Assembly (NCBI GenBank): GCA_022828105.1
Contig: JAJEJC010000008.1
Span: forward strand, 372,001 to 436,000
Reading direction: 5' to 3'
DNA from: Dehalococcoidia bacterium
Lineage (GTDB): Bacteria > Chloroflexota > Dehalococcoidia > Bin125
DNA: 64,000 nucleotides
Below the pieces are notes generated by a model, which ran no database searches, was not told the DNA's origin, and saw only the letters and a list, made by a program, of their open reading frames with translations. This document shows, in pieces, positions 2,719-25,664 of this stretch. Made by a program: the position numbers and the translations under genes. Numbering within the stretch: position 1 is the stretch's first letter; each line of letters begins with the position of its first letter.

Positions 2719-3765
2719 ATGCGCGTCGCCATCGGGATGCACCGCGACGGGATCAACGACTGGGACTCCGCCGTCCGCTACGCCCGCGAGGCGGAACGGC
2801 TGGGCGTCTTCTCCTTCTGGTCGGCCGAGGCCTGGGGCCACGACGGGATCACCCCGCTGGCCTACCTGGCCGGCAAGACCGAGACGATCAAGCTCGGCAC
2901 GGGCATCATCCAGGGCGGCACCCGATCCCCGGCGCTGGTCGGCATGACCGCGATGAGCCTGCAATCGATGTCGGGCGGCCGCTTCATGCTCGGACTGGGC
3001 ACCTCGGGACCGCAGGTCGTCGAGGGCTGGCACGGCGTGCCGTTCGCCGGAGCGGTGTCCCGACTCAAAGAAACCGCCGAGATCGTGCGCATGGTTTGCA
3101 ACGGCGAGCGCGTGATCTACGAGGGCAAGCATTACACGCTGCCGCTGCCGGACGGCGAGGGCAAAGCCCTGCGCTCGGGCGCTCCGCCGGTTGAGCCGCC
3201 GCCGATCTACCTCGCCTCGCTCGGACCCCGCAGCCTGCAGATCTGCGGCGCCGTCGCCGACGGCTGGCTCGGCACCTCCTTCATCCCCGAGACCGCCGAT
3301 GTGTTCATCGACGACATCCGCGCGGGGGCAGAATCGGCCGGACGCAGCCTCGACGACATCGACCTCGAAGCCGCCGCGGGGATTGAGTTCACCGACGATC
3401 CCGAAGAGGCGGGCAAACGACATGCCCGTGGCATGGCCTTCACGCTCGGCGCGATGGGCTCGGCCAAGACCAACTTCTACAACGACGCCTTCTGCCGCCA
3501 GGGCTGGGACGATGTGGCCAAGGAAGTCCAGCGGCTCTGGATCTCCGGCGAACGGGACCTGGCCCGCGACCGCGTGCCGGTCGAACTCGCCTTCAAGGTC
3601 AACATGATCGGCACGGACGCCGATGTCCTCGAGCGGCTGCGTGTCTACCGAGACGCCGGCATCAACACGATCCGCGCCGGCATCGCCGGTGAGACGGTCA
3701 ACGACCGCATCGCCAACCTCGAACGCTTCATGCACCTGGTCAACGAGGTCAACGCCGAGGATTGA
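2719..3765 (+). CDS. LLM-class (luciferase-like) F420/FMN-dependent oxidoreductase
   Basis: A 348-aa TIM-barrel protein of the bacterial luciferase-like family. Its opening MRVAIGMH, the segment ETIKLGTGIIQGG, GGRFMLGLGTSGPQVVEGWHG and PPPIYLASLGP are typical of the F420-dependent branch (Mer or glucose-6-phosphate dehydrogenase FGD-like). Because cofE and npdG lie in the same window, F420 is the likely cofactor, but FMN cannot be excluded. The substrate is unknown. GAAGG lies about 10 nt before the ATG. The 3' end overlaps the convergent UnbV gene by 17 bp. Confidence 0.87.
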   Translation: MRVAIGMHRDGINDWDSAVRYAREAERLGVFSFWSAEAWGHDGITPLAYLAGKTETIKLGTGIIQGGTRSPALVGMTAMSLQSMSGGRFMLGLGTSGPQVVEGWHGVPFAGAVSRLKETAEIVRMVCNGERVIYEGKHYTLPLPDGEGKALRSGAPPVEPPPIYLASLGPRSLQICGAVADGWLGTSFIPETADVFIDDIRAGAESAGRSLDDIDLEAAAGIEFTDDPEEAGKRHARGMAFTLGAMGSAKTNFYNDAFCRQGWDDVAKEVQRLWISGERDLARDRVPVELAFKVNMIGTDADVLERLRVYRDAGINTIRAGIAGETVNDRIANLERFMHLVNEVNAED

Positions 3766-5524
3766 TCGTCTCGAAGCCGGACGCGCCTTCGGTGACGCGA
3801 ATCCACGAGTTGGCCGGCACGTCGTTGAGCGTGGTGACCAGGCCGCTGGCCGGCCAGCGGATGACGATGTCCGCCGTGCCCGAGCCCGCCAATCCGAAGT
3901 GCAGGGCGTCCTCGCTCTGGCCGAGGAAGTGACTGGACACACCCGCCTGCCGGATCTGTTCCGGCAGGCCGTCGGCGAACACCGACACCTTCGCGCCCAG
4001 GCCCTGGCGATTGCTGGTCACTCCCTCGAGCGACAGGCGCAGCCAGCCGCCGACGTCCCGCGACTGGTTGCGGTAGAACAGCGGCTCCGACGCGTTGTTG
4101 ACGACAAAGACATCAAGGTCGCCGTCGTTGTCCGCGTCGAAGACGAGCAGGCCCTTGCCGTCCTCAATGTCGTCTAATCCGACATCCGTATTGCGGCTGC
4201 GGAACCGGCCCGAGCCATCGTTCTCCCAGTAGCGCGTGGCGTCGGCGTCGAAGCCGGGCATCATCTCCATGCCGTTCGTCATCGTCAAGTCAAGATCGCC
4301 GTCGTTGTCGGCGTCGAAGAACGCAGCGCCCCAGCCCCATGATCCATTGCGCACGCCGGCCGCGTCGGTTGTGTCGCTGAAGCGTCGATCGCCATCGTTG
4401 CGGAACAGCCGGTTGCCGTCGCGCAGACCTTGCTCTCCGGAACCCGGGCTGCCCGTGCGGAACGAGAACACCGAGGTCACGAACCAGTCCAGGTCGCCGT
4501 CAGCGTCGTAGTCGCCGAAGGTCGTGCCCATCGCGTTCTGCGCCGTGCCGACACGCGCATCGAGTGTGCCGTCGCTGAATGTGCCATCGCCGTTGTTCCA
4601 GAACAGGCGGCTCGTGCCGAAGTCCGAAGCGACCGCCAGATCCGGCCAGCCGTCGTCGTCGAGGTCGACAAACGTAGAGCCAAATGCAAACGTCCCCTCG
4701 GTCAACTCGTTCTGGGTTTGTGACACGACCTGATCCATGCCGACGCCTGCCGATTCCGTCACATCCTCGAAGTGGCCGGGCCGCTCCGGGCCGAGATTGC
4801 GAAGCAGTCGCACGCCCGCAACCGCCTCGCCGACCAGTTGCGATGGGCGCCACTCGGTCACGTGCAAGTCGAGGTAGCCGTCAAGGTCGTAGTCGCCGAA
4901 CGTCGCCGAGAAGCCTATCCGCCGGTCGCCCGTATCGACCGCCGCCCCGCGCGCCACACCCTCTTCCGAGAACACGCCGTCCTCATTGACGAAGAGGTAG
5001 TGCCGCGTGTCGCCGACCGTGGTGACGAACAGGTCAAGATCGCCGTCGTTGTCGATGTCGCCCCAGGCCGCGCCGTTGCTGGCCAGCTCCCAGCGGCTCA
5101 GTCCGGCCGACTCCGAGACCTCCTCGAACTCGCCGTCGCCGCGATTGCGGAAGAGCAGGTCGTGGCCGTCCATGCGGGTCACGATCAGGTCGATCGCGCC
5201 GTCGCCGTCGAAGTCTCCCGCCGCCGCGCCGCCGGTCATCCGCTCGGCGTCGCAGAGCGTCCCTTGGCGCTCTTCCTCGGTCGGCCGCGAGATGTTGTCG
5301 AACAGACAGTCGCCGGGCGGCCGCGCCTCAAACTGGACATAGCTCAAGCCCGCGGCATCAGCCGATTCGCGGAACTGGGTGTCGGGAGTCGGCGCGGACA
5401 CCACGGGCCCATCCGCCTGCGTAGGAATCTCATCGCTGCATGCGGCGCCCCACAGCGCAACAAGCGCAATCAGTGCCGATACCAGGGTCACGCGTAATCC
5501 GGTCATGGCGGATACTGCCTGCAT
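3749..5524 (-). CDS. FG-GAP/VCBS repeat lipoprotein with C-terminal ASPIC/UnbV domain
   Basis: A 591-aa exported protein. An N-terminal hydrophobic segment ends in LWGAAC, a lipoprotein-like box with Cys29. About seven calcium-binding repeats of the form D-x-D-x-D-G-x-x-D follow (GDFDGDGAID, GDIDNDGDLD, GDYDLDGYLD, VDLDDDGWPD, GDYDADGDLD and two FDADNDGDLD). These build a beta-propeller, followed by an ASPIC/UnbV module (RQGLGAKVSVFADG). Such CRTAC-type proteins are surface proteins of unclear role. The frame is open to 5605, but that start would overlap the divergent CoA-transferase gene. I chose the ATG at 5524; the ATG at 5506 is an equal alternative and gives a shorter signal peptide. Confidence 0.82.
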   Translation of the reverse strand: MQAVSAMTGLRVTLVSALIALVALWGAACSDEIPTQADGPVVSAPTPDTQFRESADAAGLSYVQFEARPPGDCLFDNISRPTEEERQGTLCDAERMTGGAAAGDFDGDGAIDLIVTRMDGHDLLFRNRGDGEFEEVSESAGLSRWELASNGAAWGDIDNDGDLDLFVTTVGDTRHYLFVNEDGVFSEEGVARGAAVDTGDRRIGFSATFGDYDLDGYLDLHVTEWRPSQLVGEAVAGVRLLRNLGPERPGHFEDVTESAGVGMDQVVSQTQNELTEGTFAFGSTFVDLDDDGWPDLAVASDFGTSRLFWNNGDGTFSDGTLDARVGTAQNAMGTTFGDYDADGDLDWFVTSVFSFRTGSPGSGEQGLRDGNRLFRNDGDRRFSDTTDAAGVRNGSWGWGAAFFDADNDGDLDLTMTNGMEMMPGFDADATRYWENDGSGRFRSRNTDVGLDDIEDGKGLLVFDADNDGDLDVFVVNNASEPLFYRNQSRDVGGWLRLSLEGVTSNRQGLGAKVSVFADGLPEQIRQAGVSSHFLGQSEDALHFGLAGSGTADIVIRWPASGLVTTLNDVPANSWIRVTEGASGFETINPRR

Positions 5525-5580
5525 TGCAATCGCGCGCTTCAGCGTTCGCTCGTGCGCACGCGCTTGAAGGGTAAACGACA

Positions 5581-6879
5581 ATGACCACAACCCACGACGG
5601 CTCACCGCATCCAGGTCCGCTGAGCGGCATCCGCGTGCTGGAGTTCTCGCAGATCATCGCCGGACCGTTCGGCTGCCAGAATCTGGCCGACATGGGCGCC
5701 GAAGTGATCAAGGTCGAGCCGCCCGAGGGCGAGGCCTGGCGCCAGTTCTCGCAGTTCATCCCCGACGAGTCGAAGTGGTTCCAGTCGCTCAATCGCGGCA
5801 AGCGTTCGCTCGTCCTAGCGCTGCGCGAGCCCGAGGCGCAGGCGATCAGCCACCGGCTGATCCCGGAGGTCGACGTAGTCGTGATCAACTACCGGCCTGA
5901 CGTCGCCGCCCGCCTGGGCATCGACTACGACACCCTTCGGGCGATCCGCAGCGACCTGATCTACGTCGACAACACCGCCTTCGGCCGGCAGGGACCGTGG
6001 GCGCAGCGGCCGGGCTACGACATCATCGCCCAGGCGGTCTCGGGGCTGATGGCGCTGGACGGCAAGCTGGACGACAACGGGACCGCGCCCTCTCCGGTCT
6101 CGTCGCCGGTGGCCGACTACGGGACGGGGATCGTGATCGCGCTGGGCGTCTGCGCGGCGCTGTTCCATCGGCAGAGCACCGGCGAGGGTCAGATGATCGA
6201 GACGACGCTGCTCAACACGGCGCTGGCAATGCAGGGCAGCAGCGTGATGCAACTGCCTGCCGCCGACGCGATCCCACTGGCCAAGATGGCGCAGGTCAGC
6301 GAGCTGCGCGAGGCGGGCGCATCCTATGCGCAAATCCAGGAGGCATACAAGGATCGCGGCGCGCAGGGCGCGCTGAACATCTACTACCGATGCTACGAGA
6401 CGCGCGACGGCGCGGTCGCGATCGGCGCGCTCTCGGCCTCGCTCTGGGCGAAGGTGCGCGAGGCGCTGGAGACCGACTTTCTCGGCTTCGCCGACCCCGA
6501 GTTGGACCCGACCGACCCCAATCAGTTTGCCGAAGCGACACGCCGGGTCCGAGAGATCGAGGCCCACGTCCGATCGTTCAGCACCGAGCACTGGCTCGAG
6601 CGATTCGACGAGTGCGGCGTGCCCAGCGGACCGATCAACTTCGCCGAGGAACTGGCCGACGAGCCGCAGGTCGTGGCCAACGGGATGGTCGTCGATCTGA
6701 ACCACGACCTGTCGGGTCCCCAACGCCAGGTCGGACCGCTGTTCAAGATGAGCGCCACGCCGACCGCGCCGCAGGGCTCGTCGCCGCCGCTGGGCCGTGA
6801 CACGGATGAGATCGTGGCAAGCGCGGGCTACAGCGAATCAGAACTGGGCGACCTGCGATCGCGCGGCATCATCGCCTAG
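5581..6879 (+). CDS. CaiB/BaiF family CoA-transferase
   Basis: A 432-aa class III CoA-transferase that would move CoA between acyl-CoA and a free carboxylic acid. Seen are the N-terminal GIRVLEFSQIIAGPFG, GAEVIKVEPPEGE, NRGKRSL, the NYRPDVAARLG segment and RPGYDIIAQAVSGLM. The Asp of that last motif is the expected catalytic residue that forms the glutamyl/aspartyl-CoA intermediate. Length fits the family. The acyl substrate is not predictable. The gene diverges from the UnbV lipoprotein gene 56 bp away and its stop overlaps the end of the convergent carboxylesterase gene by 4 bp. Confidence 0.9.
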   Translation: MTTTHDGSPHPGPLSGIRVLEFSQIIAGPFGCQNLADMGAEVIKVEPPEGEAWRQFSQFIPDESKWFQSLNRGKRSLVLALREPEAQAISHRLIPEVDVVVINYRPDVAARLGIDYDTLRAIRSDLIYVDNTAFGRQGPWAQRPGYDIIAQAVSGLMALDGKLDDNGTAPSPVSSPVADYGTGIVIALGVCAALFHRQSTGEGQMIETTLLNTALAMQGSSVMQLPAADAIPLAKMAQVSELREAGASYAQIQEAYKDRGAQGALNIYYRCYETRDGAVAIGALSASLWAKVREALETDFLGFADPELDPTDPNQFAEATRRVREIEAHVRSFSTEHWLERFDECGVPSGPINFAEELADEPQVVANGMVVDLNHDLSGPQRQVGPLFKMSATPTAPQGSSPPLGRDTDEIVASAGYSESELGDLRSRGIIA

Positions 6880-12116: not shown

Positions 12117-12156
12117 GCGCCCGCCGCTCAACACGCTCAGCCTCGAGGAGACCACC

Positions 12157-12516
12157 ATGTCCCGCCAAATCGACCACTGTCAGCTCCAGGTCCAACTGAC
12201 GCCCGGTTCCGGGGCGTGGACCACGGTGACCGAGTTGAGCGAAGCCGAATGGACCGGCTTTGCGCCGGCGGGATGCGGCGTCGACCAGGGACGCGTCATC
12301 GCGTTGCCCGACGACTCCGACTCGGCCCTGCTCGATCCGGACGCACCCGACCGAACCTGGCGCCTGGTCGATCCGCAGGGGCAGCCGCTGTTCGAGTTCC
12401 TTGGCTTTGTAGACGATCGCCGTCCCCGAGCGAAGGGTCGCATTGTGCTCGGCATCAGTACCACGCCCGAGTTGCTCGGCGACTGGAGCGAGCTACAGCC
12501 TGCCGCCGCCGACTGA
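12157..12516 (+). CDS. hypothetical protein, 119 aa
   Basis: A start at the ATG 12157 is favoured by GAGGAG 6-8 nt upstream; an in-frame extension to 12058 would overlap the macrodomain gene. It is a soluble, acidic protein without recognised motif. The N-terminal half looks beta-rich (CQLQVQLTPGSGAWTTV) and repeats of DP/DD follow. It sits between the macrodomain gene and the cobalamin adenosyltransferase gene. I do not recognise a function. Confidence 0.6.
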   Translation: MSRQIDHCQLQVQLTPGSGAWTTVTELSEAEWTGFAPAGCGVDQGRVIALPDDSDSALLDPDAPDRTWRLVDPQGQPLFEFLGFVDDRRPRAKGRIVLGISTTPELLGDWSELQPAAAD

Positions 12517-12533
12517 CGGAACAAGCGCGCGGA

Positions 12534-12539
12534 TACAAT
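12534..12539 (+). promoter_or_regulatory. -10 box TACAAT 6 nt before the pduO-type start (leaderless pattern)
   Basis: TACAAT matches TATAAT at five of six positions. It ends 6 nt before the ATG at 12546, where +1 would be expected, and no Shine-Dalgarno sequence is present. This fits a leaderless transcript. Confidence 0.5.
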
Positions 12540-12545
12540 CACGGC

Positions 12546-13127
12546 ATGCCTCACTACACGCGATCGGGAGATGATGGCTCCACGACCCTGTGGGGCGGCG
12601 GTCGCATTGCCAAGGATCACCCGCAGCCCGAGGCATATGGCGCGATTGACGAGGCGTCTTCCGCGCTGGGCCTGGGCCGCGCCTTGTCCATCGATCCGCG
12701 CACGCGAGAAATCGCAATTGACATCCAGCGGCGGTTGTACCTGATCATGGCGGAACTCGCCGTCGCTCCCGGCAAGCCGATCCCGGACGATTTCGCCACC
12801 TCGGCGGAACACGTCGACCAGCTCGAAGCGTGGGCGGCGGAGCTGGAGTCGCTCGCGCCGCCGCCGAACGAGTTTGTGCTGCCGGGCGGATCGCCCGGAT
12901 CCGCCGCGCTCGACCTGGCCCGAACGACCATCCGTCGCGCCGAACGCGAGACCGTACGCCTGCGCGGCCACGGCCATCCGGTCAACGACCACACGATTCG
13001 CTATCTCAACCGCGCGTCCTCAGTCTTGTTCGACCTCGCCCGGTATGAGGAGCAACAGGCCGGCGTCGAAACGATCCGATCTCGCGCTGCCGGCGGCACG
13101 GCCAGCGTCGACGCGGCGGCGCAGTGA
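12546..13127 (+). CDS. pduO: cob(I)alamin adenosyltransferase, PduO type
   Basis: 193 aa. It would transfer adenosyl from ATP to cob(I)alamin to make coenzyme B12. The family signatures are the N-terminal TRSGDDGSTTLWGGGR ATP-binding stretch, the EAYGAIDEASSALG helix and NEFVLPGGSPGSAALDLART with IRRAER, which form the trimer interface and active site. The start at 12546 gives the canonical N-terminus MPHYTRSGD. It has no Shine-Dalgarno sequence but a TACAAT box 6 nt before it. The stop overlaps the GTG start of the next gene. No B12-dependent enzyme is visible in the window. Confidence 0.9.
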   Translation: MPHYTRSGDDGSTTLWGGGRIAKDHPQPEAYGAIDEASSALGLGRALSIDPRTREIAIDIQRRLYLIMAELAVAPGKPIPDDFATSAEHVDQLEAWAAELESLAPPPNEFVLPGGSPGSAALDLARTTIRRAERETVRLRGHGHPVNDHTIRYLNRASSVLFDLARYEEQQAGVETIRSRAAGGTASVDAAAQ

Positions 13128-14362
13128 ACGCCATGTCCGCCACGCCGCTCGCGATGATCTCCGACGACTCATCCCTCAAGATCGCGCAAATCGAAGGCGA
13201 GGGGGCTGACTGGCAGGCCAATGTCGAGTCGCGGCTGGAGATGCGGACCGAGGGCATGGTCTTCATGTGGCCGTCCTGGTCCCCGGACGGCGAACGGCTC
13301 ACGGTCTCGGCATCGTCGCAGCGTCAGGACGATCCGCGGCTGGAACTCTGGAGCGTGCCGCGCAGCGGTGGAGCGCCGGAGGTCATGTTTCGCAATCCGC
13401 GCGACGGACGCCAGGTCATCGCCGCCGGCCTGGCTCACTACGTGCACTGGGCTCCGTCGGGGAGAGCGCTGGCCGTGGTCGGCAATGTCGGCAGCGGGCT
13501 CGCCGTCAACCTCGTCGCGGCAAACCGGCCCGGAGAAGCACAGCGCCTGGTCGACGGCGCGCCGCTCTACTTCTCCTGGGCGCCGGACGGCCGCGCGATT
13601 CTCGTACACCGTGCGGCGCAGCTCGTCCTCTTCGACCTCGCCGCCGGCGCGCAGGGTCCGCAGCAGATCCTGCGCGCGCGTCCCAGCTTCCGCTCGCCCG
13701 CCTGGTCGCGCGACGGCTCCTCGATCTACTTCGCCAAGCCACGGCCCGGAGGCGGCGCGACTCTGGCCCGGGTACAACGCGCCGAGGTCGGATCCGCAGG
13801 CGAGCATGACGAACTGATGGACCTGAGCGGTCCGGCATCCTTTGTCACCGCCCGCAGCGACGACCGGCTGGCTGTGCTGACGCTGGGACCGGGAGATACG
13901 GAAGGGCGACAGTTGTCGATCCTCGATCCCGACACCGGCGGACACGTGCCGATCGTCGACCGAGCCATGAACGGCGTCTGCTGGGCGCCCGACGGGAGCG
14001 CGCTGTTCGCCTTTGAACCCCAGCCGTCGAGCACGATGATCGGTCTCACCCGCTACGATCTCGACCGCAACGGAGAGTTCGCCGGCAGTATGCGCTTGGC
14101 TCGCTTTCAACCATCGGCCGAGTTCGCCACGATGCTCAACTTCTACGATCAATTCGCCCATTCGCACCAGGTGGTCAGCCCCTGCGGACGCTGGATCACC
14201 TTCGCCGGGCTCGCGCTCGGCAACGGAGGTTCGGGCCGGCGCGGATTCGGACCCCAGAATGGTTGCTATCTCGTCCCCAGCGACGGCTCGGAAGCGCCGC
14301 GCCGGATCGGAGCGGGTAGCATCGCCTTCTTCCCCTCGTTCCTAGCTGACGAGGCAGGCTAG
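13124..14362 (+). CDS. TolB-like / WD40-like beta-propeller protein
   Basis: 412 aa with repeated PD40-type blades: WPSWSPDGERLTVSAS, VHWAPSGRALAVVG, FSWAPDGRAILVH, PAWSRDGSSIYFA, VCWAPDGSALFAF and a last HSHQVVSPCGRWITFAG. This looks like the propeller of TolB or of prolyl oligopeptidases without the peptidase domain. No signal peptide is seen. The GTG at 13124 overlaps the adenosyltransferase stop (GTGA), so coupling is likely; the ATG at 13133 is an alternative start. It probably acts as a binding or scaffolding protein. The ligand is unknown. Confidence 0.75.
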   Translation: MNAMSATPLAMISDDSSLKIAQIEGEGADWQANVESRLEMRTEGMVFMWPSWSPDGERLTVSASSQRQDDPRLELWSVPRSGGAPEVMFRNPRDGRQVIAAGLAHYVHWAPSGRALAVVGNVGSGLAVNLVAANRPGEAQRLVDGAPLYFSWAPDGRAILVHRAAQLVLFDLAAGAQGPQQILRARPSFRSPAWSRDGSSIYFAKPRPGGGATLARVQRAEVGSAGEHDELMDLSGPASFVTARSDDRLAVLTLGPGDTEGRQLSILDPDTGGHVPIVDRAMNGVCWAPDGSALFAFEPQPSSTMIGLTRYDLDRNGEFAGSMRLARFQPSAEFATMLNFYDQFAHSHQVVSPCGRWITFAGLALGNGGSGRRGFGPQNGCYLVPSDGSEAPRRIGAGSIAFFPSFLADEAG

Positions 14363-15865: not shown

Positions 15866-17797
15866 ATGTCGAACCGTCCGACTCCGGTCGCCGACACGAC
15901 ACTCGCACGCGCGCTGCAGCGAGCCACCAACTGGTTGGTCGACCAGCAGGACGAGGCCGGGTTCTGGTGGGGCGAACTGGAATCGAATCCGTCGATCACG
16001 GCCGAGTACCTGCTGCTCACGCACCATCTTGGCGTCGGCGACCGCAGCGAGTGGGACGGCATTGCCCGCTATCTCCGCGCGCAGCAGCGGCCCGCGGGAT
16101 TCTGGGCGCAGTACCTGGACGGTCCGGGCGATGTCTCTACATCGGTCGAGGCGTACTTCGCGCTCAAACTGGCCGGCGACGACCCCGACTCGCCGCACAT
16201 GAGCCGCGCCCGGGAGTGGATCCTCGACCAGGGCGGGATCGTCCAGGCCCGGGTCTTCACCAAGATCTGGCTGGCGCTGTTCGGCGAGTTCGACTGGGAT
16301 CGGCTGCCGGCGATGCCGCCCTGGATCAACCTGCTGCCGTCCTGGCTGCCGGTCAACCTGTACGAGTTCGCGAGCTGGGCGCGGGCGACGATCGTGGGAA
16401 TCACGGTGATCATGACGCTGCGCCCCACAGCGGCGTTGCCGGCCGGCGCGGGCGTACCGGAGCTATGGGTGCGTTCCTCGGATCGGCGCCGATTCGCGGT
16501 GCCGCCGCCCAAGAGTCCGTTCTCGGCCAGCGGCGTGCTTTATGTCGTCGATGCGCTGCTTCGACTGCTGGATCGGAACCGGATTCGACCGTTTGAGCAC
16601 CGCGCCCTCGCCTTCTCGGAACGCTGGCTGCTCGATCGGCAGGAAGCCGACGGCTGCTGGGGCGGCATCCAACCGCCCTGGGTCTACGCCATCCTCGCGC
16701 TGCGCGCGATGGGATACTCGCTCGACCATCCGGTGCTCAGACGGGCGCTGGACGGCTTCGCTCGTTTTACCTGGAAGCAAAACCACGCCCAGGGAGAACA
16801 AATCTGGACCGAGAGCTGTCAATCGCCCGTCTGGGACACCTGCCTGGCCGCGGTCGGTCTGCTCGATGCGGGGCTCGATCCCCAGCATCCGGCGCTGCAG
16901 CGCGCCGCACAGTGGATGCTGCGCGAGCAGGTGTTGGCCGGCGGCGACTGGCAGGTCAAGAACCCTGATACCCCGCCCGGAGGCTGGGCCTTCGAATTCG
17001 ACAACGACGTCTATCCCGACATCGACGACACCGCCGTCGTGATGATGGCCCTCGAGCGCATTCCTTTGCCCGGACTGGAGTCCGAGCGCCAGCTCGCCCT
17101 CGACCGCGGCCTGCACTGGATGCTCTCGATGCAATCGTCGAACGGCGGCTGGGGCGCGTTCGATGTCGACAACGACAAGGCCTTTCTGGCCGAGATACCG
17201 TTCGCCGACTTCGGCGAACTGCTCGATCCACCAACCGCCGACGTGACCGCCCATGCGCTGGAGTACATCGGCCAGCTGGGGTACAGCGGCCAGTATCCAC
17301 CGGCCAGCCGAGGCCTGCGCTTCCTCTACGACCTGCAAGAGCCGGACGGCTCCTGGTGGGGCCGCTGGGGCGTCAACTACATCTACGGACTCGGCGCAGC
17401 CTTGCCCGCCCTGGCCGCGTTGGGCGAGCCGATGTCAGCCCCGCCAGTCCGCAATGCCGTCCAGTGGCTCTTCCGTCACCAGTTGCCGGACGGCGGCTGG
17501 GGCGAGTCCTGCGATACCTACGCCGATCCGTCCCTGCGCGGGATGGGTCCGTCGACGCCGTCGCAGACCGCCTGGGCGCTGATGGCCCTGATCGCCGCCG
17601 GCGAGCCGGAGCACGAGTCGGTCTCGCGCGGCGTTGAGTACCTGATCGATCGCCAGCGCGAGGACGGCAGTTGGGACGAACCGGAGTTCACCGGTACCGG
17701 CTTCCCGTCGGACTTCATGATCAACTACCACCTCTATCGCCACTACTTCCCGCTGATGGCGCTGGGCCGCTACCAGCGCGCGATTGCGCCTGGCTGA
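15866..17797 (+). CDS. shc: squalene-hopene cyclase
   Basis: A 643-aa membrane-bound triterpene cyclase that turns squalene into hopene/hopanol. The acid catalyst motif DXDDT is DIDDT at residues 385-389, in YPDIDDTAVVMM. Several QW repeats are visible (QQDEAGFWWGELE, DRQEADGCWGGIQP, QSSNGGWGAFDVDND, LQEPDGSWWGRWG, QLPDGGWGESCDTY, DRQREDGSWDEPEFTG). YADPSLRGMGPSTPSQTAWAL is close to the C-terminal cyclase signature. Length is normal. It begins 9 nt after the polyprenyl synthase stop, in one operon with the squalene genes downstream. Confidence 0.96.
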   Translation: MSNRPTPVADTTLARALQRATNWLVDQQDEAGFWWGELESNPSITAEYLLLTHHLGVGDRSEWDGIARYLRAQQRPAGFWAQYLDGPGDVSTSVEAYFALKLAGDDPDSPHMSRAREWILDQGGIVQARVFTKIWLALFGEFDWDRLPAMPPWINLLPSWLPVNLYEFASWARATIVGITVIMTLRPTAALPAGAGVPELWVRSSDRRRFAVPPPKSPFSASGVLYVVDALLRLLDRNRIRPFEHRALAFSERWLLDRQEADGCWGGIQPPWVYAILALRAMGYSLDHPVLRRALDGFARFTWKQNHAQGEQIWTESCQSPVWDTCLAAVGLLDAGLDPQHPALQRAAQWMLREQVLAGGDWQVKNPDTPPGGWAFEFDNDVYPDIDDTAVVMMALERIPLPGLESERQLALDRGLHWMLSMQSSNGGWGAFDVDNDKAFLAEIPFADFGELLDPPTADVTAHALEYIGQLGYSGQYPPASRGLRFLYDLQEPDGSWWGRWGVNYIYGLGAALPALAALGEPMSAPPVRNAVQWLFRHQLPDGGWGESCDTYADPSLRGMGPSTPSQTAWALMALIAAGEPEHESVSRGVEYLIDRQREDGSWDEPEFTGTGFPSDFMINYHLYRHYFPLMALGRYQRAIAPG

Positions 17798-17865
17798 GGA
17801 AACGGCTGCGCAAGCGGCTACCATGGCAGCAAACCAGAGAGGCGTGCACGCAGAGAGGGGGCAGC

Positions 17866-18549
17866 ATGACGACCACGCAGAGCTCCGGCGCTGACATTGA
17901 GATGCACCAGCTGCCTCGCGACCTGCGCAGCGGCGAGCGCACGATCCGGCTGCGCCACCTGGCGAGCGACGACGGCAACGCCTTGCTGGACTTCGGCCGG
18001 CGGCAACCGGGCGAGGACCTGCTGTTCCAGGAACGAGACATCACCAACGTCGCCGACATCGGCGACTGGATTCATGAGACCGACGCGGGCCGGATCCGTT
18101 CGGTGGTGGCGGAGGAGAATGACCAGATCATCGGCTACGCCACAATCGAGCGCGGTCGTCTCCGCTGGACCCGCCATGTGGCCGAGATCCGGGTGATGGT
18201 CGACGTGAGCGCCCGCCGTCTGGGGCTGGGACACGTGCTGCTGGGTCTGGCCTTTGAGGGCGCGCTGGCGGACGAAGTGTCCAAGATCATCGCGCAGATG
18301 ACGCCGGACCAGGTCGGCGCGCGCAAGATCTTCGAGCGCCTGGGCTTCGTCGAGGACGCGGTACTGACCCGCCACGTCGCCTCGGCCGACGGTGAACTGC
18401 ACGACCTCGTCGTAATGCGATTCGACACCAAGCAACGCCTGCTCTGCAAGGAGTGCGGTCAGTACGTGCTGACGCTGATTCCGCTGCAGGGCAAGCAACT
18501 GTGCTGGTCTTGTTACGAGATCCTCGATCTCGAACTTGGAGCCGGATAA
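17866..18549 (+). CDS. GNAT acetyltransferase with C-terminal zinc-ribbon-like CxxC pairs
   Basis: 227 aa from the ATG at 17866, with GAGAGGGGG upstream. Residues about 20-180 form a GNAT domain: IRLRHLASDDGNALLDF, VVAEENDQIIGYATI, VMVDVSARRLGLGHVLLGLAFE (acetyl-CoA loop, with RRLGLG in place of RGxGxG) and VGARKIFERLGFVEDAV. The last 45 residues hold CKECG and CWSCYE, two CxxC knuckles 20 residues apart that would bind zinc. The acceptor is unknown; the zinc knuckle may recognise it. The gene lies inside the hopanoid operon between shc and dodecin. An amine-bearing hopanoid or a protein are both possible substrates. Confidence 0.82.
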   Translation: MTTTQSSGADIEMHQLPRDLRSGERTIRLRHLASDDGNALLDFGRRQPGEDLLFQERDITNVADIGDWIHETDAGRIRSVVAEENDQIIGYATIERGRLRWTRHVAEIRVMVDVSARRLGLGHVLLGLAFEGALADEVSKIIAQMTPDQVGARKIFERLGFVEDAVLTRHVASADGELHDLVVMRFDTKQRLLCKECGQYVLTLIPLQGKQLCWSCYEILDLELGAG

Positions 18550-18575
18550 GCGACAGCCGGGAATCGGAGGACCGC

Positions 18576-18815
18576 ATGGCGGAGCATCGAGATCACACCT
18601 ACAAGATCATTGAACTGGTCGGCTCGTCCCCGGATGGGGTCGATCAGGCCATCCGCAACGCAATCTCACGCGCGGGAGAAACCCTGAAAAATCTTGACTG
18701 GTTCGAGGTGCGCGAGATCCGCGGACCGATCCAGGACGGCGAGATCGGCTGGTTCCAGGTCAAGCTGGGCGTCGGTTTCCGCATCCTCGACCCGGCCGAC
18801 CTCGAAGACGACTAG
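18576..18815 (+). CDS. dodecin-like flavin-binding protein
   Basis: A 79-aa protein of dodecin size and pattern: YKIIELVGSSPDGVDQAIRNAI, then LKNLDWFEVREIRGPIQDGEIGWFQVKLGVGF. Dodecins form hollow dodecamers that store flavins between paired Trp residues; here WFEV supplies the expected Trp. GGAGG lies 7 nt before the ATG at 18576. It is placed between the GNAT/zinc-ribbon gene and hpnC. A flavin store could serve the flavoenzyme HpnE further on, which is inference. Confidence 0.88.
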   Translation: MAEHRDHTYKIIELVGSSPDGVDQAIRNAISRAGETLKNLDWFEVREIRGPIQDGEIGWFQVKLGVGFRILDPADLEDD

Positions 18816-18827
18816 TCCCCATCGCCG

Positions 18828-19748
18828 ATGACGACTTCCAGCGCCGAAACGGCCTTCGCCGGCGACGCCTCCGACGCTCTCGATTGGTGCCGCCGCTATT
18901 CGCGTCGGCACGGCGAGAACTTCACGGTCGTCAGTTGGTTCCTGCCTCGTGAGCTGCGCGCGCCGATGTTCGCCGTCTACGCCTTCTGCCGCTTCACCGA
19001 CAACATCGGCGACGACCCCGACGCTGCCCCAGCCGAGCGCCTCGAACGGCTCGACACGTGGCAGGCGGACCTGGAGTTGGCGTTCGACGGTTCGCGCCCG
19101 CAACACCCCATCCATGTCGCCCTGCAACACGTGGCCGGACACAAACCGCTTCGTCCCGATCCCTTCCGCCGCCTGATCGAAGCCAACCGCGTGGACCAGC
19201 GCAAGAACCGCTACGAGACGTTCCAGGACGTGCTCGCCTACTGCGACCTCTCCGCCAATCCGGTCGGCCAGATGGTCTTGCAGCTCTGGGACATCGACAC
19301 GGAGACCGACGAGGGCCGCTACCGCGTCGAACTGTCGGACGCGACCTGCACCGCGCTCCAGATCGCCAACCACTGGCAGGACGTACGCCGCGACTATATC
19401 GACCAGCACCGGCTCTACCTGCCGCTCGACGAGCTGCGCGGATTCGACCTCTCCGAGCGCGACATCGCCGATGGCATTCGCGACCGGCAGTGCCCGGACC
19501 GATTTCGAGAGATGATGCGCTTCCAGGTCGATCGGGCCGAGGCCCACTTCCGCAAGGGCGAGCGGCTGCTTGACGAGGTGCCGCCCGAACTGGCGATCGA
19601 CCTGCGCCTCTTCACCGACGGCGGCCGCGCCGTGCTCAAGGCGATCGAACGCCAGAACTACGACACGCTCAGCCGCCGGCCGAGGGTCGGCAAGGTCACC
19701 CGGGCCTGGCTGGCGCTGCGCGCCGCCGTGCAACTCAAACTAGCCTGA
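18828..19748 (+). CDS. hpnC: squalene synthesis enzyme HpnC
   Basis: 306 aa of the trans-isoprenyl squalene/phytoene synthase family. Seen are HGENFTVVSWFLPRELR, AVYAFCRFTDNIGDDPDA (first Asp-rich region), YCDLSANPVGQMVLQLW and QIANHWQDVRRDYIDQHRLYLP (second Asp-rich region DVRRD). ENF(T/P)V and SANPVG are characteristic of HpnC rather than HpnD. In the three-step route HpnC acts after HpnD, turning presqualene diphosphate into hydroxysqualene. It starts 12 nt after dodecin and is followed 7 nt later by hpnD. Confidence 0.93.
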   Translation: MTTSSAETAFAGDASDALDWCRRYSRRHGENFTVVSWFLPRELRAPMFAVYAFCRFTDNIGDDPDAAPAERLERLDTWQADLELAFDGSRPQHPIHVALQHVAGHKPLRPDPFRRLIEANRVDQRKNRYETFQDVLAYCDLSANPVGQMVLQLWDIDTETDEGRYRVELSDATCTALQIANHWQDVRRDYIDQHRLYLPLDELRGFDLSERDIADGIRDRQCPDRFREMMRFQVDRAEAHFRKGERLLDEVPPELAIDLRLFTDGGRAVLKAIERQNYDTLSRRPRVGKVTRAWLALRAAVQLKLA

Positions 19749-19755
19749 CGCCACC

Positions 19756-20661
19756 ATGCTGCGACGCATCGATCCTCAGATCGCCAGTGCCTATCGCGAA
19801 TGCCAGGCCTTCACGCGCCGGCGTGCGACCAACTTCTACATCGCATTCTCCGCCCTGCCCGCTCACAAGCGGCGCGCGATCTATGCCGCATATGCCTACG
19901 CCGGCACGGTCGACGATGCGGTCGACGACGCCGGCACGCAGGACGAGCGCGCCGCCGCCCTGGCCCAGGCCGAAGGATTGCTGAGCGCCGTCTACGACGG
20001 CGGCAGCGCCGAGCCGCACTGGCTGGCGACCGGCCTTGGCGATGCCGTCAAACGCTTCGACATACCCCGTGAGCACTTCGACGAACTCGTGCTCGGCATG
20101 GAGCACGACCTGACCGTCACGCGTTACGAGACCTTCGCCGAACTGGAGCAGTACTGCTATCGCGCGGCGTCGGTGATTGGCCTGATCTGCATCTGCATCT
20201 TCGGCTACGACCGCACGCAGACCCAACTCGCGACGCAATCAGCGATCGCCATGGGCAAGGCCCTGCAGATCACCAACATCATGCGCGATGTCAAGGAAGA
20301 TGCCGAGCGCGGCCGCATCTACCTCGCTCAGGAAGACCTGGCGCGGCACGGCGTCTCCGAGCAGGACATCCTCACCGGCGCTTATGGCGAGCCGTTTCGA
20401 CAGCTCATGGCCGACTACGCGCAGCGGGCCTACGCGCTGTACCACGAGGGCGACCAACTGATCCCGTTGCTCAGCGGACCGCGCAGCCGCGCCTGCTGCA
20501 ACGGTCTGCAAGGCGTCTACCGAATGATCCTCGACGCGATTGTCGCACACGAGTACGACGTGTTTAGCCAGCGGGTATCTCCCTCGCGCGCCGGACGAGT
20601 GCTGCGCTTGCTCGAACTCTGGCTGCTCGGTTCGCTGCCCAACCTCGCTCGCGTACGCTAA
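19756..20661 (+). CDS. hpnD: presqualene diphosphate synthase HpnD
   Basis: 301 aa, a paralogue of hpnC in the squalene/phytoene synthase family. Motifs: TRRRATNFYIAFSALP, AYAYAGTVDDAVDDA (first Asp-rich site, variant DDAVDD), LEQYCYRAASVIGLICICIFG and ALQITNIMRDVKEDAERGRIYLA (DVKED). HpnD condenses two farnesyl diphosphates to presqualene diphosphate. The gene lies between hpnC and hpnE, with the GTG of hpnE 7 nt after its stop. A phytoene synthase role is possible on sequence alone, but the neighbours argue for squalene. Confidence 0.93.
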   Translation: MLRRIDPQIASAYRECQAFTRRRATNFYIAFSALPAHKRRAIYAAYAYAGTVDDAVDDAGTQDERAAALAQAEGLLSAVYDGGSAEPHWLATGLGDAVKRFDIPREHFDELVLGMEHDLTVTRYETFAELEQYCYRAASVIGLICICIFGYDRTQTQLATQSAIAMGKALQITNIMRDVKEDAERGRIYLAQEDLARHGVSEQDILTGAYGEPFRQLMADYAQRAYALYHEGDQLIPLLSGPRSRACCNGLQGVYRMILDAIVAHEYDVFSQRVSPSRAGRVLRLLELWLLGSLPNLARVR

Positions 20662-20668
20662 ACGCGTT

Positions 20669-22075
20669 GTGAGTCCGACCGAGCCGAACGCTCCCATTGC
20701 CGTCATTGGCGCCGGTCTTGCCGGGCTGACGGCCGCCCTCGACCTCGCCGACGCCGGACGCGATGTCATCCTCGTTGAACGCCGACCCTTCCCGGGCGGC
20801 AAGGCCTACTCTTTCACCGATCCTAAGCACGACGTCGTACTCGACAACGGGCAGCACATCACGATGCCCTGTTGCACGGCATTCCAGGACCTGATCGAGC
20901 GAATCGGCTGCGCCGATGTCGTTCGTTACCAACCGCACCTCGATGTCGCCGTGATCGATCCCGACTCCAACGGCCGGCGAGTCAGTGTGTTGTCCGGGCA
21001 ACCGCCAGGTGCGCTCAGGCATCTGGGATTGAACCGCTTGCCGGCCCCGCTGCACCTGGCTCCGTCGCTGCTTGGCTACGAGCACCTCAGCATCGGCGAG
21101 AAATCCAGGCTCGGATTCGCCCTGCAGCCGATGCGGCGGATCACCGAGGCCGAGCGGATGGCGCTCGACCGGCAGTCCTTCGCCGACTGGTTGCGCGCGC
21201 ATCACCAGACGGAGCGGGCGATCGAGCGGTTCTGGGATCTGATCGTGTTGCCGACCTGCAACGACCGCAGCGAAGCCGTTTCCGCGGCTCAGGCGATATT
21301 CGTCTTCCAACGCGGATTTATCCACGATCGGGATGCCGCGAACATCGGCCTCTTTGCGCGCGGCCTCGGAGAGATGGCCGACACGGCGCTGAAGCGCCTG
21401 TGCGAACGCGGCGCGCGGGTTGAGCTTGGCCACTCGGTGCGAGCCCTGGTCATGCAGGAGAGTCAGGTCAGAGCGATCCGCTACGGCAGAGACCGCACGT
21501 TGGAGGTCGGCGCGGTCGTCCTCGCGCTGCCGCCCGACTCGGCGTTCGAATTGATTCCGGCCGGCTGGCGCAGGCGCGAACCATTCTGGCGCCTCGCCCA
21601 ACACGAGCTCAGCCCAATCGTCAACGTGCACTTGAAGTGGGACCGCAAAGTCATGCGTCGCGACTTCGTCGCCGTGCTCGATCCCGACGCCCAGTTCATC
21701 TTCAACCGCTCGCAGATGCACGGCTGGCCGACGCCTCCGCAATGGATCTCCGTCTCCCTCAGCGGAGCGCACGATCTGGTTGACCGCTCACGGCAGGAAG
21801 TCATCGAGCGAGTAGAGCGCGCCGTGAGGCGAGCCTTGCGCCGAACGGACGGGGCCGCGTTGCTCGCGACTCGCGTGGTCAAGGAGCAAGCGGCGACCTT
21901 CCGACCCAAGCCGGGCATGAACGCGCACCGCGTGCGTCCGCGCACGCCGATCGGCAATCTCGTCCTGGCCGGCGCATGGACGGCCACCGGCTGGCCCGCG
22001 ACGATGGAGTCGGCCGTGCGCAGCGGCCACGCCGCGGCCCAGTCATTGATTGACCAAGAGGAGACCTGGACATGA
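20669..22075 (+). CDS. hpnE: hydroxysqualene dehydroxylase HpnE (FAD-dependent)
   Basis: 468 aa from a GTG at 20669, which leaves the dinucleotide motif VIGAGLAGLTAALDLADAG near the N-terminus; longer in-frame versions overlap hpnD. It is a flavin amine oxidase/phytoene desaturase-like protein. Further signs are RPFPGGKAYSF, DNGQHITMPCCTAFQDL, the WRRREPFWRLAQHELSPIVNV segment and the C-terminal FAD site VLAGAWTATGWPATMESAVR. HpnE reduces hydroxysqualene to squalene, completing the three-gene route. Its stop overlaps the ATG of the RidA gene. Confidence 0.93.
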   Translation: MSPTEPNAPIAVIGAGLAGLTAALDLADAGRDVILVERRPFPGGKAYSFTDPKHDVVLDNGQHITMPCCTAFQDLIERIGCADVVRYQPHLDVAVIDPDSNGRRVSVLSGQPPGALRHLGLNRLPAPLHLAPSLLGYEHLSIGEKSRLGFALQPMRRITEAERMALDRQSFADWLRAHHQTERAIERFWDLIVLPTCNDRSEAVSAAQAIFVFQRGFIHDRDAANIGLFARGLGEMADTALKRLCERGARVELGHSVRALVMQESQVRAIRYGRDRTLEVGAVVLALPPDSAFELIPAGWRRREPFWRLAQHELSPIVNVHLKWDRKVMRRDFVAVLDPDAQFIFNRSQMHGWPTPPQWISVSLSGAHDLVDRSRQEVIERVERAVRRALRRTDGAALLATRVVKEQAATFRPKPGMNAHRVRPRTPIGNLVLAGAWTATGWPATMESAVRSGHAAAQSLIDQEETWT

Positions 22076-22479
22076 CCGAACGCCGACGCGTGCATTCCAA
22101 TCCTCAGCTCGAGCAGCAGTTCGCCTACTGCCGAGCGATTCGGATTGGCAACCTCATCCATGTCAGCGGCACGGCCGCCGTCGAGCCGGACGGCAGCGTG
22201 ACGCCCGGCGGCGTCGGCCCGCAGACCGCCCGATGTCTGGCCATCATCAAGAACGCACTGGAAGAACAGGGCGCGTCGCTCGCCGATGTCGTACGCATCC
22301 GCATCTACATCACGAGTATCGGCGAGTACGAGGCCACGTCGGAGCACCTCCGCGCCGCCTTCGCCGATGCGCCGCCGACCTCCACGATGGTCGAGGTCAG
22401 CGGCCTGATCGATCCGCAGATGATGGTCGAGATCGAGGCCGAGGCGATTATCGACCCTGAGCGCGTCGCAGCGGATTGA
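22072..22479 (+). CDS. RidA-family protein
   Basis: 135 aa of the YjgF/YER057c/UK114 family, with [38 protein letters not shown], an Arg in [11 protein letters not shown] at the position used to bind the carboxylate of imines, and a C-terminal [10 protein letters not shown]. RidA hydrolyses reactive 2-aminoacrylate/imine intermediates to keto acids. The ATGA overlap with hpnE makes it the last gene of the hopanoid operon, although no link to hopanoids is known. The 3' end overlaps the convergent GGQ gene by 32 bp. Confidence 0.88.
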
Positions 22480-22987
22480 GTCCGCGCCGCTCGCGCATCT
22501 CGTTCGTTTTCGCCCACAGGTGCGGCTCCGAGGCGAGCAGCTTGGTCAACTGGTTCGAGGAGCAGCCGAGCAGCGCGGCGCAATCCGCGACGGAGCCGTC
22601 GACCGCCGCGAACAGGTCCAGCAGCGGCCCGACGCCTGTCCAGAACTCCCGATGCCGAGCCCCCACTCGCTCCTTGCGCGGGACTTCGCCGGCAACCGTG
22701 CGCGGCAGTATCCGCTGCAGTGCGGGCGGCGGATGATAGGCCTCCATGGCCGGTTCGGTCCTGACCTCCAGGGCGATCCCGCGGCGCAGACGAGCCAGGG
22801 CCGTCGACCGATTCTGATGCTGTGAGCGGCGCTCCGAGGCGTAGCCGACCACGCCGGTCGGTTCGTGGGTCAGGCGGACTGCGGAGTCGGTCTTGTTGCG
22901 GTGCTGTCCGCCGGGGCCGGAGACCCGGAAGCGCTCGAACTCACACTGCGCAAGCAAGTCCTCGTCCGAGAGCGCCAGCCAATTCAC
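22448..22987 (-). CDS. release-factor-like protein with GGQ domain
   Basis: 179 aa with the peptidyl-tRNA hydrolysis motif GPGGQHRNK (GGQ at residues 26-28) in [22 protein letters not shown], as in class I release factors and ArfB/YaeJ. There are no codon-recognition domains. The C-terminal 60 residues ([19 protein letters not shown]) look helical and helix-turn-helix-like instead of the Lys/Arg-rich disordered tail of ArfB. A ribosome-rescue or quality-control hydrolase is likely. The GTG at 22985-22987 has a GGGGG run just upstream. The gene follows the permease by 19 bp on the same strand. Confidence 0.82.
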
Positions 22988-23006: not shown

Positions 23007-24764
23007 TCAAATATCGACCGTCGCCGGCGCAGGAGCGAGCTCCGACGACTTCGAGATCTCGAAGCTGATGTACTGCCAGTCCGAGATCGTTGTGTGGTTC
23101 ACGTGCGACGCCATCTCGTTGAGCAGCACCAACCCCAAGTCGCGCAAATCCTCGCTCTCGGCTTCGACCAAATCCGGCGGCAGGTCGGGCATCTCGATAT
23201 CGCGCGCTTCCGAGCGGTCGGTGATCATCACGTCGACCGTGCTGTCGTCAGGGGATAGCTCGATTCGCAGCGTGCGGTCCGGCTCGCCCTGTGCCGACAG
23301 ATGGGTGAAGACTTCCTCCAGGCACAACTCCAACTGGTTGGCAGCGCGGAGAGGCAGCCGCATCGACTCCGCCGACCGCTGCGCGAACTCAAGCACCGCC
23401 GGGAGTTCCTCGACGTCGGCGCGTCCGCGCCAGCGGAAGCGCTTGCGCGGGGCAAGCCGGAACAGCGCCGTCAGCGCCACGGCCAGCACCGACGACGCGG
23501 AGATCGAGTTACCCGCGATCGGTTCCAGCGCGTCGGGAATCTTGTCCATGAAGAACAGGCCGTTCTGAGCCGCAAAGCCCCCCCAGAACGCGACCCCGAT
23601 GATCAGCGTCGTGCGCCCGTTGATTCCTCCCGACACCGCGAGCTGCAGCCCCATCACGAACAGCAGCAACATCGTGACGAACGTCACCGCGCCGATTGCG
23701 GCCAGCGGCAGGTCGAGGACGAAGCCGGTTACCACCGGGAAGAACGCAATCACGATCATCAAACCCGCGCCGTAGAGCGCGACCCAGCGCGAGCCCACGC
23801 CGATGACCGGGATCATGCCCGTCGGGGACGAGTAGGTCGTATTGGGCGTGGTGCACATGATCCCGGCCAGGGCGTTGCCGACCGCGTCGGCGTTGAGCGC
23901 GCCGCGCACCGACTCGTAATCAATCCTGCGGAATCTGCGCTGCGAGACCTTCTGCACCGCGATCGCGTCGCCCACCGTCTCGAAGGTGCCGGCCAGGGTC
24001 GCGATCACAAACGCGCCCAGCACGGCGAACGCCTCGCCGGTCAGAGGGAAGGTCGGCGTCTCCCACTCGCCGATCGGAAAGCCCACAATCGCCGCTTCGC
24101 TGGTCTGTGTGAAGTGCCAGTCGCCCGTAGCCAGGGCGGTCAAGGAACCGGCGGCGATACCAAGAATCGGCGACCATAAGCGATAGCGAGCAGGCGCCCA
24201 GACAATCATCGAGATCATCACAATCGCGGCGACCGCGCCGATCAGCAGGAACTCGGACGAGCCTTGCTTGCCCTCGACAAACGCGCCCTGCCACTGATCG
24301 AGCGCAATCGGGACGACGAGCACGGCCACCGACATGACCACGACGCCGCCTACAGTGGGTGTAAAGATGGTCCGCAGCACCCGGAAGAAGTGCGCGATCA
24401 GCCACTCGGTGGGCGCGGCGATCAGCGCCAGCGCGGCGACGAATCCGATTCCGGCCAGCTCGATCGCGTCCATCGTCGCGGCGAAGAACGCGCCCGAGGT
24501 GCCCATGAAGAGCATGTATCCCGAACCGACGCGGCCCAGCCGGATCGCCTGCACGGCAGTGGAAAGCCCGGCCGTGAGCAGTGTTGCCGAGACGAGAAAG
24601 GCGGCCTGATCGAAGCTGACGATGCCTAGTGAGCGCATCAGGATCGGCAGGAAGATCGCGCCCGAGATCACGAACAGCGCGTTCTGCAGCCCCAGTCCGG
24701 CCGCAATCACGACGGGCGGCCGCTCGTCGACCGCGTAGCGCAGGGGCGTTTCCCGTTCTCGCAT
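23007..24764 (-). CDS. NCS2/UraA-type nucleobase permease fused to a C-terminal anti-sigma-like ATPase (HATPase_c_2) domain
   Basis: 585 aa. Residues about 15-440 form a polytopic NCS2 transporter: [20 protein letters not shown] (TM1, QN where UraA has QH), [15 protein letters not shown] (a Glu like UraA E241) and [20 protein letters not shown] (TM10; Ser where UraA has Glu290). Residues about 445-580 resemble RsbW/SpoIIAB-type GHKL ATPase domains: [21 protein letters not shown] (N-box, with the Asn replaced) and [18 protein letters not shown] (G-box-like end). A sensor or regulated transporter is plausible, with the ATPase domain in the cytoplasm. A TAGACT box lies 9 nt before the ATG. Confidence 0.85.
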
Positions 24765-24773
24765 CGCCCGCGT

Positions 24774-24779
24774 AGTCTA
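24774..24779 (-). promoter_or_regulatory. -10 box TAGACT for the permease gene (leaderless pattern)
   Basis: On the minus strand TAGACT ends 9 nt before the ATG (24762-24764), and the 9-nt spacer contains no purine-rich Shine-Dalgarno stretch. It is the same box as at 39856 and 45783. Confidence 0.45.
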
Positions 24780-24830
24780 AGGCGAGCAGTCGCATCGGCA
24801 GCCGATCAAGTGAGTCAAGCGAGGCATCCC

Positions 24831-25664
24831 ATGACATCCGGTCAGACCGCCAGTGTGAACGGACTTCAGCTGCACTACCTCGATCACGGAGGCGAGGCGC
24901 CGGTCGGCGCGGTGGCGCTACACGGCTTCGCGCTCAACTGTCACTCCTTCGACGAAGTCGCGCCCGCGCTCTCGGACCGGCTGCATTGGTACGCCCTCGA
25001 TCAGCGCGGTCACGGACACTCGGACCGAGCGGCCGAGCTATCCGACTACTCTCGCGATCACATGGCCGCCGATGTCGGCGGGTTCATTGACGCGCTCGGA
25101 CTCGATCGGCCGGTCGTGCTGGGACACTCGATGGGCGGGATGAACGCAATGACCTTCGCCGCCCGACATCCGGATCAGCTTCGCGCGCTGGTACTGATTG
25201 ACGTGGGGCCGGGCGTCAGCGTCGACGGCGCCCAGCAGGTGCGGCAGTTCGTCCAGGGGCCGTACGAACTGGACTCGCTGGACGCATGGGTCGACATGAC
25301 CCACCAGTACTACCCGTTCCGCTCGAAAGAGGGGATTCGCAAGCGGCTGGAAGTCTCGCTACGCGAGACGCCCGAGGGCAAGATGGCGAAGATGTTCGAC
25401 GAACGATTCCGCGAGGCCGACTTTCGCGGCGTTGCCGACGGACGCGACGGCATCTGGGAGACGGCCAACGCGCTCTCGGTGCCCACGCTCCTGCTGCATG
25501 GCGAGAACAGCCCGGTACTCAAGCGGGAACAGGCCGAGGAGTTTGCCGACAAGGTCGACGTCGTGCGATTGATCACGATTCCCGACGCCGGCCATTCCGT
25601 CGCCGGCGACCAGCCCGAGGCGTTCACCGAAGCGGTGCGGGACTTCCTCAACGATGTCCTCTAG
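24831..25664 (+). CDS. alpha/beta hydrolase
   Basis: 277 aa from the ATG at 24831 with GCGAGG upstream; a GTG at 24810 would add seven residues. The fold is clear: VALHGFALNCHSF (oxyanion region), YALDQRGHGHSDR, the nucleophile elbow GHSMGG with Ser100, an acid in LLLHGENSPVL and the catalytic His in IPDAGHSVAGDQPEAF. It is a cytoplasmic hydrolase of about standard size; the substrate is unknown (ester, lactone, or C-C hydrolase of a ring-cleavage product). The stop overlaps the start of the next gene by 11 bp. Confidence 0.88.
   Translation: MTSGQTASVNGLQLHYLDHGGEAPVGAVALHGFALNCHSFDEVAPALSDRLHWYALDQRGHGHSDRAAELSDYSRDHMAADVGGFIDALGLDRPVVLGHSMGGMNAMTFAARHPDQLRALVLIDVGPGVSVDGAQQVRQFVQGPYELDSLDAWVDMTHQYYPFRSKEGIRKRLEVSLRETPEGKMAKMFDERFREADFRGVADGRDGIWETANALSVPTLLLHGENSPVLKREQAEEFADKVDVVRLITIPDAGHSVAGDQPEAFTEAVRDFLNDVL

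Follow-up and report, generated by a model that had tools for sequence, protein, structure and literature searches.

In the SLC26/SulP transporters, a 7+7 membrane architecture of the UraA type is followed by a cytoplasmic C-terminal STAS domain, a member of the partner-switching repertoire, and this tail is required for stability and function (reviewed in PMC8256260). In the SLC5-STAC-histidine kinases, such as CbrA and CrbS, a transporter and a signalling domain that contains GHKL are fused (PMC7096432, PMC5715377). The gene examined here, which lies in a 64,000-nucleotide stretch of a Dehalococcoidia genome (the whole stretch is referred to as the window hereafter), combines an NCS2/SLC23 permease with a degenerate domain of the RsbW/SpoIIAB type (Table 1). 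Its nearest parallels are the SulP-STAS transporters, which belong to the same membrane superfamily and carry the complementary tail, and the SLC5-kinase transceptors. The differences are as follows: the SulP tail is a STAS domain, whereas the tail here is of the RsbW type, a STAS partner, and sits on a different transporter family; the SLC5 fusions have an intact kinase, another transporter family, and another GHKL class. No published description of an NCS2-RsbW fusion was found in the searchable literature, with subscription papers lying outside the search.

Each part of the protein can also be compared with its own family. Like the NCS2/SLC23 members (PbuX/XanP, UapA, and UraA), the membrane part matches PF00860 from end to end and, in the window protein, carries the TM8 motif E-T-x-G-D; it differs from them in falling under the TIGR03173 and TIGR00801 cut-offs, in having lost both the His of TM1 and the [QE]-N pair of TM10, and in the extra C-terminal domain. 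The tail shares the sequence family (HATPase_c_2), the predicted fold, and the N-box Glu with RsbW and SpoIIAB, while it differs in being membrane-tethered, in lacking the Mg-binding Asn and the G1 and G2 glycines, and in having no cognate sigma or STAS gene adjoining. NCS2 permeases with a soluble C-terminal domain of another kind, a urate-pathway enzyme of the UraD type (OHCU decarboxylase), were seen in Rubrobacter and Rhodococcus. They represent a separate and functionally transparent kind of transporter-enzyme fusion. The membrane part of the Rubrobacter protein is placed in the canonical clade, and uraD, uraH, and pucL are located directly downstream of the Rhodococcus gene.

Table 1. 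Positions of the fused gene, its parts, and the other genes mentioned in the text
Feature	Sequence	Position	Strand	Basis or remark
Fused gene P0001 (585 aa): NCS2/SLC23 permease and degenerate RsbW/SpoIIAB-like domain	Window	23007..24764	(-)	Single ORF, Pfam, full-length orthologues
NCS2/SLC23 membrane part, residues 15-436	Window	23457..24722	(-)	Xan_ur_permease, TIGR03173 alignment, UapA alignment
TM8 motif FETVGD, residues 261-266	Window	23967..23984	(-)	E262 aligns with UapA Glu356
TM10 stretch TTYSSPTG, residues 309-316	Window	23817..23840	(-)	S313-P314 replace Gln/Glu-Asn of the NAT signature
C-terminal RsbW/SpoIIAB-like (GHKL) domain, residues 445-575	Window	23040..23432	(-)	HATPase_c_2, predicted fold, RsbW/SpoIIAB matches
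N-box remnant EVFTH, residues 484-488	Window	23301..23315	(-)	His in place of the Mg-binding Asn; Glu484 retained
G1-box position DRSEA, residues 516-520	Window	23205..23219	(-)	Glycines missing
RF-1-domain (GGQ) gene	Window	22448-22987	(-)	Same strand as the fused gene, starting 19 bases downstream
Hopanoid-type run	Window	15866-22479	(+)	Its last gene, RidA-like, directly precedes the fused gene
SpoIIE phosphatase and HATPase in one ORF, then STAS gene	L056 (same genome, contig C4)	8141-10563
DUF1330-like small gene	L058	8930-9277		20 bases downstream of a fused permease gene (L003 type)
SulP transporter with its own STAS tail	L067 (G117, genus g66)	3006-4631		Few kb from a fused gene
SulP transporter with its own STAS tail	L070 (G033, genus g66)	12136-13752		Few kb from a fused gene
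'Hypothetical protein'	L046 (Thiodictyon plasmid)	24125-25534	(-)	N-terminus resembles the window tail
NCS2-UraD fusion	L109 (Rubrobacter)	953-2950
NCS2-UraD fusion	L113 (Rhodococcus)	4929-6842

The initial annotation had described an NCS2 permease fused to a GHKL domain, and both the fusion and its coordinates proved right: the reading frame on the minus strand is uninterrupted over 585 codons. In Pfam, Xan_ur_permease (PF00860) covers residues 24-392 (E = 4.1e-41; 141 bits against a curated cut-off of 27; profile positions 6-376 of 389), and HATPase_c_2, against which a check of the C-terminus had been suggested, covers residues 449-556 above its curated cut-off (E = 2.3e-10; 41-45 bits against 27.4). 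In NCBIfam, the permease part aligns to TIGR03173 (pbuX-like) over residues 24-435 under the curated cut-off, its match to TIGR00801 is likewise under the cut-off, and the RsbA anti-sigma family is matched below threshold over the tail. Separate assemblies hold seven full-length orthologues of 87-96% identity and one more of 63% identity, and the fusion is retained in every one of them. A frameshift splitting two genes, or a chimera, is excluded by the one ORF and by the full-length orthologues in separate assemblies. Judged from the sequence, the product is one polypeptide composed of an NCS2 permease and an RsbW/SpoIIAB-type domain. In the membrane part, dN/dS (Nei-Gojobori, against the window gene) lies at 0.03-0.06, and in the C-terminal domain at 0.06-0.22, which indicates that the tail changes faster than the membrane part, yet is clearly constrained by purifying selection.

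The fusion is not confined to this gene. Two further fused paralogues, 24-28% identical overall, are present in the same genome, and a search in other Chloroflexota, as had been proposed, found full-length fused proteins in 32 of 400 genomes, which belong to five families. Eight genomes were closely examined: they carry 1-6 fused copies each, and 3-6 outside the genus of the window. Fused homologues were also found on plasmids of Azospirillum thermophilum (two), Pseudoroseomonas, and Candidatus Thiodictyon syntrophicum (two), where they are annotated merely as 'solute carrier family 23 protein'. A plasmid search with the tail alone gave one weak match, and no relatives were found in virus collections. 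In a 'hypothetical protein' encoded in the same Thiodictyon plasmid region as the fused permeases (L046), the N-terminal region resembles the window tail (29% over 92 residues), and the C-terminal part that follows is unrelated.

A maximum-likelihood tree of the membrane part alone was constructed from 26 NCS2-RsbW fusions and 16 unfused or otherwise fused NCS2 proteins of Bacteria and Archaea. The sampled NCS2-RsbW fusions, all 26 of them, fall into a single clade (100% ultrafast bootstrap), and the Chloroflexota and proteobacterial fusions are sister clades. A single ancient fusion is the simplest reading of this tree, which a broader reference sample could alter.

The fold of the tail was predicted for residues 436-585 from a shallow alignment of nine sequences, and the resulting model (mean pLDDT 76.7, pTM 0.74) was the confident one of five, the others staying at approximately 35. 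The best solved Foldseek matches to this model were RsbW and SpoIIAB (E = 4e-5 and up, with 4e-5 to RsbW chains). In VIA-align, the Z scores were 12.6 for RsbW (6m37 and 8ih8; 2.3 Å over 109 residues for 6m37_C) and 12.4 for SpoIIAB (1tid_A), while those for histidine-kinase ATPase domains were 6.3 or less. This contrast points to the anti-sigma kinase type and not to any GHKL domain, and the tail is predicted to have the Bergerat fold of that type. Thus, the resemblance of the C-terminus to RsbW/SpoIIAB noted in the initial annotation is upheld by both the Pfam match and the structure prediction. The full-length model had a pLDDT of 42.8, and the membrane fold was therefore taken from the sequence.

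Searches against PDB sequences were weak: the tail alone gave a best E of 0.36, a profile of close orthologues reached E = 0.04 to RsbW, and a profile of the paralogues found no meaningful match. The degenerate paralogue tails were therefore assigned by profile comparison, in which the window-type tails matched the other Chloroflexota paralogue tails at 95.5%, and the Chloroflexota paralogue tails matched the intact HATPase of the SpoIIE protein of the same genome at 88%. The proteobacterial tails matched the Chloroflexota paralogue-tail profile poorly (11%); these fusions were tied in through the membrane-part tree and a weak HATPase_c_2 match of an Azospirillum tail (E = 0.0013). Outside the subfamily of the window, Pfam saw HATPase_c_2 in 2 of 28 Chloroflexota tails (best E = 0.0013), and it was not detected by Pfam in the other two fused copies of this genome. 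The subfamily of the window is the one whose tail is still recognizable, and most tails of the family escape the domain databases.

The motifs were counted in an alignment of 62 fused proteins. The N-box Glu (E484) and Val555 are present in all 62 proteins and His557 in 59, while the Mg-binding N-box Asn (position 488) is gone from 61 and found in 1. This position is occupied by His in the window protein and by His or Tyr in its close orthologues. The altered N-box Asn had been noticed before and is confirmed as His488, but the damage is wider than was noted: no in-register glycine motif of the G1 (DxGxG) or G2 (GxG) box is found among the 62 proteins. Asp516 of the G1 box is kept in the subfamily of the window (10 of the 62). 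It appears from the alignment that the ATPase apparatus has been lost while a partner-facing Glu has been kept. Because of these losses at the ATP site, the tail is not classed as an anti-sigma kinase, despite its RsbW-like sequence and fold. We take Glu484 to be the counterpart of Glu49 of RsbW, by an ungapped alignment with the RsbW sequence and not by structural superposition. In the crystal structure of the RsbV-RsbW complex, Glu49 of RsbW contacts the phosphorylatable Ser56 of RsbV (PMC7340262). The other RsbW contact residues, Arg23 and Asp42, are not conserved in the tail according to the ungapped alignment, and the invariant Glu484 could be retained for structural reasons.

As for the membrane part, the initial annotation was correct in that the Glu of FETVGD is kept and that a Ser replaces the TM10 Glu in TTYSSPTG: E262 falls on Glu356 of UapA, and S313 falls on Gln408. 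The side chains of these two UapA residues hydrogen-bond xanthine, and the Q408P substitution lowers the xanthine affinity more than 100-fold (PMC4837479). The window protein retains both E262 and D266. Among the 62 fused proteins, 33 have Glu and 22 have Lys at position 262, and the NAT signature [QE]-N-x-G of TM10, which reads SPTG in the window protein, is lost in all. The unfused Chloroflexota NCS2 proteins L099 and L100 keep the TM8 and TM10 motifs (QNIG/ENVG). The TM10 motif is also missing from L012 and L013, the unfused proteins that the tree places closest to the fused clade, indicating that its loss is not specific to the fusion. Since the Gln/Glu-Asn pair of TM10 is gone, the protein probably does not transport or sense a classical nucleobase bound in the manner of UapA or UraA, and the paralogues with Glu and those with Lys in TM8 probably handle different solutes. 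The family-wide TM10 loss and the TM8 Lys make 'nucleobase' uncertain as the substrate.

Taken together, these results are best accommodated, with a probability of about one half, by a non-catalytic regulatory or dimerization tail on a transporter or a transporter-derived receptor. An ancient elevator-type subfamily of SLC23/NCS2 would have acquired an RsbW/SpoIIAB-type domain once. The number of membrane spans in SLC23 proteins is even, from which the tail is inferred to be cytoplasmic; there it would serve as a protein-protein module that neither hydrolyzes ATP nor phosphorylates. In the simplest modes, the tails would pair within the SLC23 homodimer, or the tail would bind a soluble partner, and this contact may stabilize or gate the membrane part in an action resembling that of the STAS tail of the SLC26/SulP transporters. 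Nucleobase sensing coupled to a regulatory protein, as the initial annotation suggested, is possible; a coupling to a STAS partner is also possible, and weakly supported.

A more specific alternative, which we consider tentative, is a partner-switching transceptor: the membrane part would sense a solute, and the pseudo-RsbW tail would capture or release an unphosphorylated STAS protein, thereby linking the solute supply to a SpoIIE-HATPase/STAS pathway and gene expression. It is consistent with this alternative that the STAS-binding class is the sole strongly matching domain class, that the one invariant N-box residue is the Glu which touches the STAS serine in RsbW, and that CbrA is a known example of a transporter joined to a signalling ATPase (PMC7096432). 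The genome of the window holds one SpoIIE-HATPase and STAS pair, in which the ORF of the sole SpoIIE phosphatase also encodes an intact HATPase (N-box LDELLTN; GGLGL) and the STAS gene (10228-10563 of L056) comes next; no sigma factor was seen adjoining this pair. However, this pair is on another contig, and BLAST searches with the genome's own copies found no STAS or SpoIIE gene near the fused gene, where a STAS neighbor had been proposed as a check, or near approximately 50 related Chloroflexota loci.

Of the 32 genomes bearing the fusion, 31 have SpoIIE, as do 177 of the 368 others of the same Chloroflexota sample, a co-occurrence which was not taken as evidence of linkage because it follows lineage and is confounded by descent. 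On the Thiodictyon plasmid pTs417, the two fused genes are followed at 3-9 kb by genes for a STAS protein, a SpoIIE phosphatase, and an HATPase fragment, and within 9 kb also by a solute-binding protein gene, with xanthine dehydrogenase genes beyond; however, such linkage was seen in Thiodictyon only, and in this transposase-rich region a single linkage can be chance. Neither Azospirillum locus has STAS or SpoIIE: the neighbors are guanine deaminase and urate hydroxylase genes at one locus, and glycogen/trehalose genes together with an ECF sigma/ChrR pair at the other. The missing counterparts of Arg23 and Asp42 also speak against a STAS-capturing tail, and 3-6 receptors acting on one or two switches would be odd unless they compete. 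When generalized across phyla to a class of transporter-derived receptors, in which the SLC23 part would control partner switching via a non-catalytic, STAS-capturing tail of the RsbW type, the proposal is doubtful.

An ordinary nucleobase transporter with a functionless relic tail is improbable. The retained E262 and D266 of the window protein and the location of proteobacterial relatives near guanine deaminase, urate hydroxylase, and xanthine dehydrogenase genes would suit such a transporter, whereas the substrate residues of TM10 are lost, and the tail is kept across phyla and in many paralogues, under purifying selection and with invariant residues. Least probable is ATP binding at a non-canonical site of the tail, by which transport would be gated or a partner phosphorylated: the predicted GHKL fold, the catalytic-base Glu in 62 of 62 proteins, and the Asp516 of the window subfamily would allow it, but the absence of the Mg-binding Asn from 61 of the 62 and of any in-register D-x-G-x-G or G2 GxG motif speaks against a working kinase and against the ATP-gated transport initially suggested. 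Some pseudo-ATPases still bind nucleotide, and the loss of the motifs does not prove that ATP is no longer bound; ATP-gated transport by the fused protein is nevertheless unlikely, as the nucleotide-binding residues are lost across the family.

Several other genes were observed around the fused genes. The RF-1-domain gene downstream of the window gene is kept beside the fused gene in eight related loci, and the two are likely co-transcribed. The hopanoid-type run, which is composed of a squalene-hopene cyclase-like gene, two squalene/phytoene synthase-like genes, a FAD-dependent desaturase-like gene, and the RidA-like gene at its end, is largely conserved in the orthologous loci. A DUF1330-like small gene accompanies the L003-type fused permease in the locus listed in Table 1 and in seven others. 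The neighborhood was rejected as a guide to function in Chloroflexota, since the loci share no purine or partner-switching genes. A SulP-STAS neighbor was also rejected as a general link, because it occurs only within one genus (g66).

At the minimum, these findings describe a widespread SLC23 subfamily whose tail is missed by the databases and for which a nucleobase substrate should not be assumed. The SulP transporters with a STAS tail, the function of which is debated, are an existing meeting point of partner switching and membrane transport, and in the present fusions the domain on the same membrane superfamily is that of the STAS partner. Should the tails bind STAS proteins, there would be a direct link at the membrane between solute transport and sigma-type regulation, and the question of why STAS domains sit on anion transporters would become testable from the other side. 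A class of STAS-capturing receptors, if true, would be the mirror image of the SulP-STAS transporters and would represent, beside the SLC5-kinase fusions, a second route from transporter to signal receptor.
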